Source: Polyporus tsugae (lineage: Eukaryota > Basidiomycota > Agaricomycetes > Polyporales > Polyporaceae). From it: a stretch of DNA of 64,000 nt. Below the pieces are notes generated by a model. That model was not told the origin of the DNA. It saw only the letters and a program-made list of their open reading frames with translations, and made no database searches. The stretch spans positions 126,501-190,500 of the forward strand of contig JAHRBS010000006.1 of NCBI GenBank assembly GCA_024305745.1, given 5' to 3'. Numbering within the stretch: position 1 is the stretch's first letter; every line of letters begins with the position of its first letter. The translations under genes and the position numbers were made by a program. This document shows positions 15,474 to 21,549 of the stretch, one piece after another.

Positions 15474-15482
15474 GTCACGCGT
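15474..15482. repeat. left target-site duplication GTCACGCGT
   Basis: The nine bases GTCACGCGT directly precede the first base of the left terminal inverted repeat and recur, without mismatch, right after the right inverted repeat (21541-21549). A perfect 9-bp direct repeat is the expected footprint of insertion. Confidence 0.93.
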
Positions 15483-15748
15483 CAGGCTCCTTCCCATCCG
15501 CCGCTCTTTCGTTGAGGGCTTTATCCTAGAGGAGGGGTCGAGGTAGTATCCGAGAAAGCGGGACAGGTTGGATCATGTAAGCGCGCACAATGTTGGGTCA
15601 CGTGGATTCGTAGTGTTGGCCCTCAACTTCAGAGGGCGGCTGGCACCAAACACATACAAATATACGGAGCACGGCGCGTAGACGCTAGGACCCTCCCCGT
15701 ATGGAAGGCGGGAAAACACGGGCGCCAGGGATTTTCGAAAATTCGCCT
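15483..15748 (+). repeat. left terminal inverted repeat (266 bp)
   Basis: The outer 83 bases (15483-15565) match the reverse complement of the right end exactly, as do 91 inner bases (15619-15709). A roughly 53-base middle part is diverged. The inner identical block contains an AT-rich CAAATATA motif, so this TIR may also be the promoter of the DUF6589 gene 84 bases downstream. Confidence 0.92.
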
Positions 15749-15831
15749 CTCGGCTATTCACTTAGATCATCGATTCTGGATGTACAGTGGTGTCCGTCGG
15801 CGAGCTGTGTCCTCTCTGTTGCCTTACCACA

Positions 15832-18562
15832 ATGGACCCAGATCGTCTACGTTACCTGAATCAAGTGTTGACGTATTTGAGGTCAATAAATGTCTCGCTC
15901 ACTGAGCTCCTCTCTGCGGTCCTAGTTCACAACCTCTGCAACCGGCCGGAAGACGGCTTCCTCGACGATCTCATCCATTCAACTCGCGTCATCCTCGGGT
16001 CACTGCACCATAACCCGGCGACTGCTCATGCAACTTGCTCTTGGGCGCATGATCTCATGTGCTCGCGATACTCGCGTGCTGTACAGAATCTCACAGACCG
16101 GGACCATGGATGGCACTTTGGAGCAATGCATGCTGCCGGGCACCAGATCCGTGAGTTCCGTCTCGAGAACATGGCGGACTCGATGCGGAAGTTGGAACCG
16201 CAGCTCTGGGAGCTGGTCTTCTGTCTCTTGGGAGGGAGAGAGGCCCTGGCTGAAGACGCTGTTGACGAAGAAGACGCTCAATACTGGATCGGAGATGATG
16301 AGGCCGAGACATTAGCGGGATCTGGAGCCTCGCACTCAGATACAAAGGCGGGACGGAGGCTTAAAGACCGAGCCGTGTTGATACGCATTGTGAGTGATTT
16401 TTTGCTTTCAACAGGAATGGTTGTTCACGCTCTGCATATATAGAAAGCCGTCGTTGTTAACTCCATATTTATGCACGCTCTCGATCAACACTGCAACGCG
16501 CTACAGAGTACCATGGGCGTGTTTCTCCATTCTTGCAACGCGCCCGAGAAATTGGTGAAGGTCCTGTCAAGAATGGGACTTTCAATCTCTCTCACGTCAA
16601 TTCATCAAAGTGTCGAGTCCCTCTCAAGGCAGTCCCATGTCGACATTGAAGCGCTCAGTCGAACACTTCTCACCTCACATGCTTTCGACAACTTCGACAC
16701 CCGAATCGCTGCTCTTATCTCCATGCTTGATAAGCTGACCGAGGGACTCCTCCATCTCACATCAGGGACGCTGCTTCGCCTCCAGCACGTGCACGTGGAA
16801 GACCTTTGCTGTTCGAAGTTACTGTGGGACAGATTGGAGCGCAACAGACTCGCTTCAGACCCACGACCCTTCGATCCCAAGGCGACCATGTTCAAGCTCT
16901 ATACATTGCATCCTGAGCCCGACTTCGTGTCCCTTCCACCCGGGGCTACCAGTCCAGGGCTGAGCCGTCGCGGTCGCTTCCATGCATGGCATTTTGCGCA
17001 AACATTGTTGAAGCATGGTCCCGAGTCTTTGAAACCCCTGCTTGATGTTCTACCCAATCCCGAGCCTGTCGAGTCGATTTCCCTTTCCAAGTTGTACCAG
17101 ACACCTCTCCGAGCCATGGATATCAATCAGTCAACTGTATCCGGGAACATTGAGGCGATTTTGAACATGTTCAAGCAAGCCGGGCTTGGCAACCCGGTCG
17201 AAGATGCTGACTGTGTCGACCCTAGCGAGTATGTGGTTCTCGTTCATGGAGATCTTGGCACCTGCGAGCGGGTCCTTTCCGGATTACGGCGGCGGTCGCA
17301 AGAGCGGACCGCGTACGATCGGCTGCAGTCTGTGGTCTTCGTCATGGGCTTCTTTCATCTAAAGATGGCAGCTGTGGATGCGATTTGGCGGGTTCTTGTG
17401 GCGCCAAACGGCGTGCAGTCTGATGATACCAGTTTCATGAAGCTCGCCGGTGAGCTTCGACCAAATGAGAGCTCCCGCCTAGTGTCAAATGCAAAATTCC
17501 GACAGCAGCACGAGCTCATCGGGGATGTCGCCGTCCTTCTCGAGCTCGATGCGTGGCGAGTAGAGATCAAGAAGTGCTTCGGACACAGCACACTGGAGGA
17601 GTGGGCAGCCAAAAGGCCCACCATCGACGATGTTGAGGCTGTGGCTGACGCGCTGACGAAGAACTATGTAGAGGGCGAGGGTGAGGATCGTTGGGACCAA
17701 TCGTGCGCGGCTGGACGAGATCGAATCAAGGAGAACACCAAACGAACGCTCGAGTATTTGCTGCTATACGAAGAGCTCGCCTACGCAATGAATGCTAGGG
17801 ACATAGGCCGTGTCGAAACACTATTCCCGGCGTGGATCCAGATCTTCCGCGCAACAGGGAAGCACAAGTATGCGCATCAAATGCTCCGTTTCATCCACAA
17901 TCTGTACTTCGTCTATCCGGAGGCTCTAAGGTGTGTTCCATATGAACGTGGTCGGTCGCGGGAGCACTAGCTGACTGTTGCCATATCTAGGAAAATAATC
18001 AGGTACAATATCCTTGTCAATCCCACAGGGAAGGCGGGCGAGTTCCGGGCGGTGGACTGGATCGTCGAACTGCTTAATCTGTACATAAAGGTAAGTATTC
18101 AGCTGTTCACAATGTGGATTCTACCGGATATTGAAGATGGAGAAGGTGATCTACGGTGGCGAAGGGTCCAACTACACAAAAGACCGCATTCTCCTTGAGT
18201 CTGTGCTAGTGCTGCTATTCCGAAGCAGCCATGCCAATTTTGAGCGCAATTTTCGCCTACCTGAGTTGAGCTTTGCTCACGCAAAGAAGGACATGCGAGA
18301 AACCTTCAAGGAAATGCTCCAAAAGCTCAAGGTGCGCAAACCTAACGAGCACTGCGCGGCACGAGGTGGTACGGGGTACAACATTGCAAATGCATTAGCG
18401 GAGGGAGCTACAATACTCGCGCGAGAATGGTCGAGGCCACAAGGCCCAATGCATGGTACAGGAGAGGATGCGGGTGGAGATGACGAAGAAACTACAGAGC
18501 CGGGGGAGGAGATTGGTGACAAGCTGACAGAGGAGGATCTCAGTGTCGAAGGACTGTTGTAA
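15832..18562 (+). CDS. DUF6589-type protein, candidate transposase of the element
   Basis: Exons 15832-16389, 16444-17930, 17991-18090 and 18137-18562 (introns 54, 60 and 46 bp) give 2,571 nt, 856 aa, with no lesion. I recognise the fungal DUF6589 family from the blocks MDINQSTVSGNIEAI, VLVHGDLGTCERV, VVFVMGFFHLKMAAVDAIWR, KYAHQMLRFIHNLYFVYP and LVNPTGKAGEFRAVDWIVE. Asp412 (MDINQST), Asp456 (HGDLGT) and Glu708 (DWIVELLN) are spaced like a DDE/RNase-H-type catalytic triad; this reading is inference, as the family has no established role I can cite. The C-terminus is acidic. It converges on the helicase gene and appears to start from the left TIR. Confidence 0.85.
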
Positions 18563-18626
18563 AAATTAACTGCGCGCACATACCTTGGCGGAGTTTGGCT
18601 TCTACCTCCGCCGGACTAAGGATGGT

Positions 18627-21250
18627 TCATGTGTGCATGTATGCGGGGGATTCGATGAAAGAGCTGAAAAACCCGTCATAACCCCCGCTAGCGCGCGGGG
18701 GAGTGACGACGGCGCTGACACTCTGTAAGTGGCTGTGCACGTTGGTCGCACTACCTGATGCGACCGCAGTCCTCAATGCAGCGGCCTGAAGGGAAGGAGG
18801 ACCGCTGCTCAGAGCGTGATTCTCCTTCCTGTCGTACACCGCCGGGTTGTTGAACAACAGACATGTGCGGCTCCTCCCTGAGAGCCGTGATAAGGGAATG
18901 CATGAATAAATCTAGAACACGAGCACTTACTTGTATGCCCCACTTCACCACATGCACCGCACGTCTTCGTACATGCTGGTCATACATTGCCAGCGGCTGC
19001 AGGGACATTATCATTGCCCGTGGCGAGGGCCCCGGTGGGTGCGCTTTCAAATGGATGGGGATAATAACTGAGACAATTGTTAGCAATGTACCCGCGCTGC
19101 GTTAGTCATAACAGACGTACTTCTTGATCAACTCTAGCACCTGCTCCCCTAGCTCCCAGGTCTGGTCCCACTTCGTCTCCCGGTAGAGGTCCTCGAGAGA
19201 CCGGAGCTTGTAAGCACGCGCACAGTGGGCGATATGCTCGAGAATAGAATCGCCCATGATGAGGTCGGGCCTGAGGTTATTGAGGATCGCGAGCCCAAAC
19301 AGGATCTGGGTCCTGTCGCGTCAGAGCGTGTTGAGAGCTGTTTGGAATTCACGGTCCTTGTCGGACATCGTGTACTTGCTGGGTACTTTGGACGCCCGTG
19401 GACGCAGTGGCTGAGGGAGTGGGGCGGCTGGGAGGATGGTGAAGACTGGGTGAGCCGGCGAGTAAAGACAACAGCAGACAGATGACGGCGGGATGCAGCA
19501 GCGAGCACAACCCTCCTCCTCTTGAGAACGACACAGCAGGTGGTCCAGAACTGGATTATGTAATTGAACATAAGTTTCCTGAGAAGCACGGTGGAATTAG
19601 GGACTCACCAAATCAGTCGTTCGCATACAATGCCGTAATTGGCGCACGGTGGCATTTGAATGGACGTGTCCCAGCATTCACCAGGTTGTCCATCTCCACT
19701 CCCATCCCTTCGCTCTTCTCTGCCTGCTTCCCCTTCTTCTTATGGCTGGCGGTGCCTGACCCCTCGGATGCGACCTTGAATTGGACTCTCAGCTGCTCGA
19801 ACTGCGACAGCTCGCCCTCAACGCTTGGCTCGCCTGATGCAACAAGAGACTCGGCGGCGGGGAGGGCAGGGGCTGGTGGTTCGAGACGTTGGCGAGTCGA
19901 CGCAGTGTGAGTGCTCGCACTTTCCGCCTGTTTATGTTTACCTTGCTCCCTGTCTGCGGCTTTCTTTAGCTCCCTTTCATCCTTCTTTCTCGTCCATTCC
20001 TCTGCCGCCGCCCTCTGCTCATCAAAGTACTTCGTCTCCACAATCAAGATGGTGAGTGCATGGGTTCCAGGCCCCCGAGCAGCCCGACCGAACTGCTGCC
20101 ACAGCGTGTCCATATCGCAGGTCGTCCGCCACTGGACAACGAGTTCAATATTTGGTACGTCCATGCCCTAGTAGTATGTCTCGGTCAGCGTATATCCCGT
20201 GTATGTACCATCAGCAAGGCACATTACCATTCCGAAAGAATCTGTGCAAAATAAGCCTATCAACTCGCCCCATGCAAACTCCTGCGTCGCCGTCTTGCGT
20301 AGGCCAGTTGTAACATCAGAATTAATCCACATGATTTTGTGCCTGTGCTCGGGAGGGAGGCACTGTTGGATGTGTTCTGCGGCCTTCATGGAATCTTCAA
20401 TGCTGTCGAAGAAGACAATGAATCGCGGGACATGGGTACCGGGCTTCCAGTCATCCGGGATCAGGAAGTCCAGGTCTTTGAAGCTGGATACTGCATATTG
20501 CATTTTGTGAATGGCGAGGTAGACGTTCGGCCAGTCGTTCGAGCGATGGAACATGAGCGTCTTCTCACGCGGCACTTGAAGGGTATGCAGGACGGTGGAA
20601 AGTGCCTGCTCGTGTAGTGTTGCAGACGGAATGAGAAATTGAGTAGAAATTAAATTCCGAAGTCGTCCCGCCTGTGCGTATTCCGGGCGGAAGTCTGCCC
20701 AGGCTTTAATGCAGTGCGCCTCATCCCAGATCACCGAGATGAGGCGCGACGTGAATGCGGACTTCCTCCATAACCGCTGGAACCCGCCGCCTACCCTAAA
20801 GGCTACTTCGGGGTTCACGACGATCACGCGGTATTGCAGTAATTCGATAGCCTAGACCACACAAGTGTTAGTTGACAAGCGTCCAGGAGAAGCCACCGAA
20901 GCTAATCTTACCTCCAAATTCTGGTGCGTGGCTGTCTTCCCTGACAACGCGATCCCTCGAATGCCCACCTTCTCCAAGTCGGCAGTATTCTGACTTCCCA
21001 GGAGGTTCAGCGGCGTGATCACAACCTGGATACCCTCAGGCCGGAAGAGCAAGGGAATCCAAAACGTGAGGGTCTTTCCGGACCCAGTGCCCGAGATACA
21101 TACAATATCCTTGTCCCTGCGGAGCTGGGCTTGAGCGACCTGGCACTGCCAGAGACAAGGACTGCGACCCAGAACGGCGAGGGTCTTTGCCGTTATCTGA
21201 GCCACAGACGGGACTTCTTGCCTGCTTGACGTGCCCGCACTTGATGCCAT
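18627..21250 (-). pseudogene. RecQ-like DNA helicase with zinc knuckle, three in-frame TGA
   Basis: Exons on the minus strand are 21250-20912, 20851-20228, 20167-19609, 19550-19121, 19067-18931 and 18877-18627 (introns 53-60 bp), totalling 2,340 nt or 780 codons in one frame. Motifs: Q-motif-like PCLWQCQ (Gln37), Walker A GTGSGKT (Lys59), DEAH box WDEAHC (Asp156), SATL, FGMGMDVPNIELVVQWR (motif V) and QQFGRAARG (motif VI). A Cys-rich segment follows (GCARCCIPPSSVCCC), then a CX2CX4HX6C zinc knuckle near the end. The frame is interrupted only by three TGA codons (19615-19613, 19323-19321, 18982-18980), each one C-to-T step from CGA. I read it as a decayed helicase; an N-terminal product of about 505 aa with all helicase motifs could still be made. 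Confidence 0.82.
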
Positions 21251-21271
21251 GTGTACTTTGAGAAATGCATC

Positions 21272-21540
21272 GAGGCGAATTTTTGAAAATATCTGGCGCC
21301 CGCAGTTTCCTGCCTTCCATACGGGGAGGGTCCTAGCGTCTACGCGCCGTGCTCCGTATATTTGTATGTGTTTGGTGCCAGCCGCCCTCTGAAGTTGAGG
21401 GCGAACGTACCCAATTCACGTGACTTAATACAACCAGCGCTTACATGATCAAGCCTGTGTCCCGCTTTCTCGGATACTACCTCGACCCCTCCTCTAGGAT
21501 AAAGCCCTCAACGAAAGAGCGGCGGATGGGAAGGAGCCTG
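21272..21540 (-). repeat. right terminal inverted repeat (269 bp)
   Basis: Reverse complement of the left repeat, ending GGAGCCTG at 21540. The helicase ATG (21250) lies 22 bases inside it, so this repeat probably holds the helicase promoter. Confidence 0.92.
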
Positions 21541-21549
21541 GTCACGCGT
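21541..21549. repeat. right target-site duplication GTCACGCGT
   Basis: A perfect copy of 15474-15482, directly abutting the right inverted repeat. Confidence 0.93.

Follow-up and report, generated by a model that had tools for sequence, protein, structure and literature searches.

The known DNA transposons closest to the element described here are those of AcademH, a little-studied lineage of the Academ superfamily for which the defining paper is reportedly Kojima 2020 (Mob DNA 11:15). In the parts of the literature available to us, AcademH elements encode a helicase and generate 9- or 10-bp target-site duplications, as opposed to 3 or 4 bp in AcademX, and the helicase has been suggested to set this longer duplication (PMC10045372); they are present at low copy number in Basidiomycota, Ascomycota and Mucoromycota (PMC10799480), and a RecQ helicase has been noted in Academ (PMC3627910). 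We analyzed a 64,000-nucleotide stretch of Polyporus tsugae DNA (contig JAHRBS010000006.1, positions 126,501 to 190,500; hereafter the window) that holds an element with long terminal inverted repeats (TIRs) and two internal genes, one encoding a DUF6589 protein and the other a RecQ-like helicase of superfamily 2 (SF2). This element resembles AcademH, as those partial sources describe it, in pairing a putative DDE transposase with an SF2/RecQ helicase, in its 9-bp duplication and in its low copy number in Basidiomycota. Judged by reported features, we consider it likely to be an AcademH-type DNA transposon that moves by cut and paste and is kept at low copy number, in a host that the best protein matches suggest to be a Ganoderma-like polypore.

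The element proper occupies window positions 15483-21540 (6058 bp). Its ends form an inverted match of 83 nt at 100% identity (15483-15565 with 21458-21540), continued by one of 187 nt at 87% (15563-15749 with 21272-21458), and perfect copies of GTCACGCGT abut the termini CAGGCTCC...GGAGCCTG. The boundary features are as follows.

15474..15482, no strand assigned: left 9-bp target-site duplication, GTCACGCGT
15483..15749, plus strand: left TIR (267 bp); its outer 83 bp match the right TIR exactly, its inner part at 87%
21272..21540, minus strand: right TIR (269 bp)
21541..21549, no strand assigned: right 9-bp target-site duplication, GTCACGCGT

The original prediction, made from the letters of the window, had given the span as 15474-21549; its boundaries stand, with the correction that it counted both target duplications as part of the element.

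When the genome (43.2 Mb, with all copy counts being lower bounds) was searched with the left end, five matches were returned. Two are the window ends, one is a lone end at C6:1035047-1035195, and the remaining two each belong to a relative, one on C15 and the other on C3. Both relatives are complete at 6346 bp and carry the DUF6589 and helicase genes inside; they are 97.7% identical to one another, and in matching stretches of at least 100 bases they share 71-80% identity with the window element. Their termini read CAGGCTCCT..., and they are flanked by different perfect 9-bp repeats, GGAGTAACG and GCCCTCCGG. Because the terminal sequence recurs in these two further copies, beside a different perfect duplication in each, the window ends are not a product of chance, confirming that the window element is a real, well-bounded transposon. 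The duplication is perfect in all three full-length elements, and its 9 bp lie within the 9 or 10 bp reported for AcademH. The ends, duplications and gene layout thereby bear out the earlier proposal of a TIR transposon with a 9-bp duplication and two internal genes, and the search of its own genome that was suggested with that proposal has produced further full-length copies, every one with a perfect 9-bp duplication and both genes.

A search with the end of a relative gave seven matches, one of which was a new end remnant on C1. In total, the genome contains nine DUF6589 loci, three of them full-length elements with ends, plus two end remnants, consistent with the low copy number reported for AcademH in fungi. 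The 149-bp lone end on C6 (L006 5548-5696) stops just past the inner arm of the motif described below, and no duplication was found beside it. A boundary scan around DUF6589 at eight loci (all except the window) selected the same ends in the two relatives, with 13 of 14 terminal matches; in a control of five base shuffles per locus, the best values were 9 at the loci of the two relatives and 10 across all eight. A strict scan for TIRs and duplications found none at the six other loci (C1, C2, C3:2134 kb, C5, C13 and C14), and wider stretches at the same six yielded nothing above five base shuffles per locus. A relaxed scan, which allowed two mismatches in the duplication and had no control, yielded a single weak candidate at each of C2, C5 and C14, and these were not adopted. 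The six loci without detected ends may be decayed or short-ended.

The two genes of the window element are convergent and are laid out as follows.

15832..18562, plus strand: DUF6589 gene, read as a DDE transposase; exons 15832-16389, 16444-17930, 17991-18090 and 18137-18562; 856 amino acids, no stop
19126..21250, minus strand: RecQ-like SF2 helicase gene; exons 21250-20912, 20851-20228, 20167 to about 19613, then a Cys-rich exon at about 19545-19126

The first three helicase exons encode 505 open amino acids, and the Cys-rich C-terminal exon was placed through its similarity to an open frame in one relative (L007). Exon 1 scores above the Pfam cut-off for DEAD, the other exons match DEAD or Helicase_C below cut-off, and the joined protein matches RecQ helicases, though below the curated RecQ cut-off of NCBI. 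The 17 Pfam matches to DUF6589 in the genome group into the nine loci, and a convergent RecQ-like helicase adjoins DUF6589 at eight of them (the window and seven of the eight others scanned); the locus lacking one is C14, where the DUF6589 match is partial. At five distant loci the helicases are only ~23-28% identical to that of the window, which, with the pair convergent at eight of nine loci, indicates that the association is old. Five further helicase matches, nearly equal in score and range and all at 27% identity (C1:4996600, C5:2120745, C7:4006859, C9:3280539 and C11:2453580), are possibly telomere-linked RecQ helicases; the one on C5 lies less than 12 kb from the contig end (2132190).

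A helicase of the RecQ type is likewise a feature of KolobokH, in which a Kolobok transposase is accompanied by such a helicase. KolobokH elements duplicate TTAA, as opposed to the 9 bp found in three of three elements here. According to the part of the source available, KolobokH is a DNA transposon with a RecQ helicase that is reported from fungi only, as would suit a fungal element, and its helicase lies downstream of the transposase domain (PMC9587614), whereas here it is a separate convergent gene. We rejected membership of KolobokH on the duplication and regard this reading as highly improbable.

The evidence that the DUF6589 protein is a transposase comes from its predicted fold and from a conserved acidic triad. 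All introns of the gene are GT..AG, and the spliced product matches Pfam PF20231 (DUF6589) at E 1e-71 in the main exon and weakly (0.061) in the last. The predicted structure of a DUF6589 homologue matches hAT, P, Tn5, ISCth4, RAG and Transib enzymes among its top 24 matches, with hAT and the P element closest, and 119 of the 128 homologues that cover all three sites have D-D-E, in keeping with the DDD/E transposase reported for AcademH. The proposed catalytic codons are as follows.

16687..16689, plus strand: D268, proposed catalytic residue 1
17251..17253, plus strand: D456, proposed catalytic residue 2
18067..18069, plus strand: E708, proposed catalytic residue 3, in motif DWxxE (residue 709 follows at 18070-18072)

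We prefer E708 as the third residue because it falls in the Hermes range and is conserved in both clades of homologues: all 45 sequences that have a residue at that position carry E there, and it is kept in 131 of 134 sequences with the motif column across both clades. In the first clade the raw column is E in 73 of 99 owing to local misalignment, and a recount at +4 from the conserved D gives 91 of 93. Three other candidates were set aside: E644, which is replaced in the second clade; E630, which is mixed there (E in 22 and D in 16 of 44); and D639, which is kept in both clades, yet ranks behind E708. A DUF6589 profile found no match among PDB sequences at E up to 1. From the modeled fold and the conserved D-D-E, DUF6589 is very probably a DDE transposase, with the fold and catalytic triad of this protein being predictions. 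A function would thereby be assigned to a domain that is catalogued as unknown and occurs in many mushroom proteins, and many hypothetical mushroom genes would be transposon genes. Our literature search returned no relevant paper naming DUF6589 and a single, unrelated match to PF20231; the identification of DUF6589 as this transposase is apparently new. Protein searches for distant relatives recognized no named match outside Agaricomycetes among the matches listed, a word-based result that is weak evidence. Among the homologues, P0003 (Ganoderma boninense) carries the UniRef name 'ATP-dependent RNA helicase CshA', which is probably mistaken or reflects part of a fused gene model. Two others have an extra Pfam domain (P0057, PF26138; P0173, PF03732, which we take to be a retrotransposon gag domain) and are perhaps fused models or nested elements.

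The fold predicted for DUF6589, an RNase H core into which a large helical domain is inserted, may be one that it shares with hAT (Hermes) and the P element. P elements duplicate 8 bp, and here the duplication is 9 bp, a helicase gene is present and the DUF6589 profile lacks a PDB sequence match. We rejected membership of hAT on the same ground, as its duplication, in the part of the source available, is usually 8 bp and 5-7 bp in some lineages (PMC12730594), compared with 9 bp in all three elements. Long TIRs and 9-bp duplications could instead mark a Mutator-like element (MULE) with a diverged transposase, since MULEs are described, in the portion of the source at hand, as having 8-11-bp duplications and TIRs often of hundreds of bp (PMC6446971), and both features occur here. 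However, the six exon pieces scanned against Pfam at E up to 1 contain no MULE domain, the five MULE matches in the genome all lie outside the element, a RecQ-like helicase is present, and the DUF6589 model matches hAT, P, Tn5 and RAG enzymes. No solved MULE structure is known to us, which leaves the fold search undecided on this point. The suggestion in the original prediction that neither gene resembles a Mutator transposase agrees with these scans; we rejected Mutator membership and hold it to be as improbable as that of KolobokH.

Several observations weigh against an AcademH-like transposon moved by its own DUF6589 protein. The likeness to AcademH is one of reported features, the predicted fold is nearest to hAT and the P element, and RecQ helicases are also found in KolobokH and in a red-algal Kolobok, where the helicase is encoded on the complementary strand (PMC9587614, as partly available). 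These points would favor a separate DDE superfamily defined by DUF6589, which gained its RecQ helicase independently of AcademH and shares the 9-bp duplication by coincidence. We find this unlikely, given that the element agrees with AcademH, as reported in the partial sources, in the type of its helicase, in having a fungal host, in low copy number and in the 9-bp duplication. In a fuller proposal, DUF6589 would form a superfamily of its own that is old in Agaricomycetes and almost always accompanied by a convergent RecQ-like helicase, the paired motif of the ends would be kept by coordinated change, and the helicase might act on a folded or unwound end. This is about as unlikely; if true, it would be a mode not described for cut-and-paste transposons. 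In addition, ends are visible at only three of nine DUF6589 loci, the C-terminal helicase exon of the window copy has one in-frame stop, and the DUF6589 gene has stops in both relatives. The stops would suit a copy that is decaying or not autonomous, in which both genes are mere cargo for another transposase. That the convergent pair is old, being present at eight of nine loci, and that the catalytic triad is conserved make this the least credible of the alternatives.

In the AcademH-like reading, the DUF6589 protein would act as a DDE transposase, its predicted fold combining an RNase H-like core and a large helical insertion domain. It would bind the long inverted repeats, cut at the outer CAGG/CCTG and insert the ends into target DNA at positions staggered by 9 bp, and repair of this stagger would leave the 9-bp duplication. 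The RecQ-like SF2 helicase would be an accessory, probably unwinding DNA at the ends or at gapped and branched intermediates. We infer this transposition chemistry, the helicase role and the AcademH membership. The earlier view that a DUF6589-plus-helicase TIR element is undescribed is not supported, as the partial sources already report that AcademH combines a helicase and a DDE transposase and duplicates 9 or 10 bp of its target. The element is most likely an AcademH transposon, ordinary in kind and useful for the identification of DUF6589 as the probable transposase and for its exact ends. Three bounded elements with such ends are material for testing what a RecQ helicase does in those cut-and-paste transposons that carry one, and whether it sets the longer 9-10-bp duplication.

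The two relatives (L007 780-7125 and L008 2559-8904) differ at 146 sites, of which 140 are transitions and 111 are in CpG context; the first 300 bp are free of differences, and the last 346 bp have two. This pattern suggests methylation-linked C-to-T mutation or a process like repeat-induced point mutation, sparing the ends. The present autonomy of the window copy is doubtful because of the stop in its last helicase exon, despite its open transposase gene.

Within each end lies an inner inverted motif that is apparently new. Its arms in the window element are as follows.

15511..15519, plus strand: left end, arm 1 (GTTGAGGGC)
15619..15627, plus strand: left end, arm 2 (GCCCTCAAC)
21504..21512, minus strand: right end, arm 1
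21394..21402, minus strand: right end, arm 2

The motif, GTTGAGGGC ... GCCCTCAAC, is identical in both window ends, and in a relative it reads GGTTGAAGGGC ... GCCCTTCAACC at the left end and GGGTTGAGGGA ... TCCCTCAACCC at the right, with the arms 97-110 bases apart from start to start. Compared by eye, arms within one end fit each other better than they fit the arms of another end, and across three independent ends the arms appear to change together between elements, which we regard as a lead and not a proof. Automatic alignment of the ends did not bring the arms into register. Single-strand DNA folding was significant at one of four ends (L008 left, z -3.10; the other three 1.64, -0.89 and 0.41), and a stable hairpin is therefore not shown. 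The motif could be a site of transposase or helicase action.

Rfam gave no match at gathering scores. Outside the element, a Pfam scan of 9 of the 12 window open reading frames of at least 230 amino acids gave none at E <= 0.001, a weakly informative result as introns split genes here. Three open frames of 101-153 amino acids cross the joined flanks.
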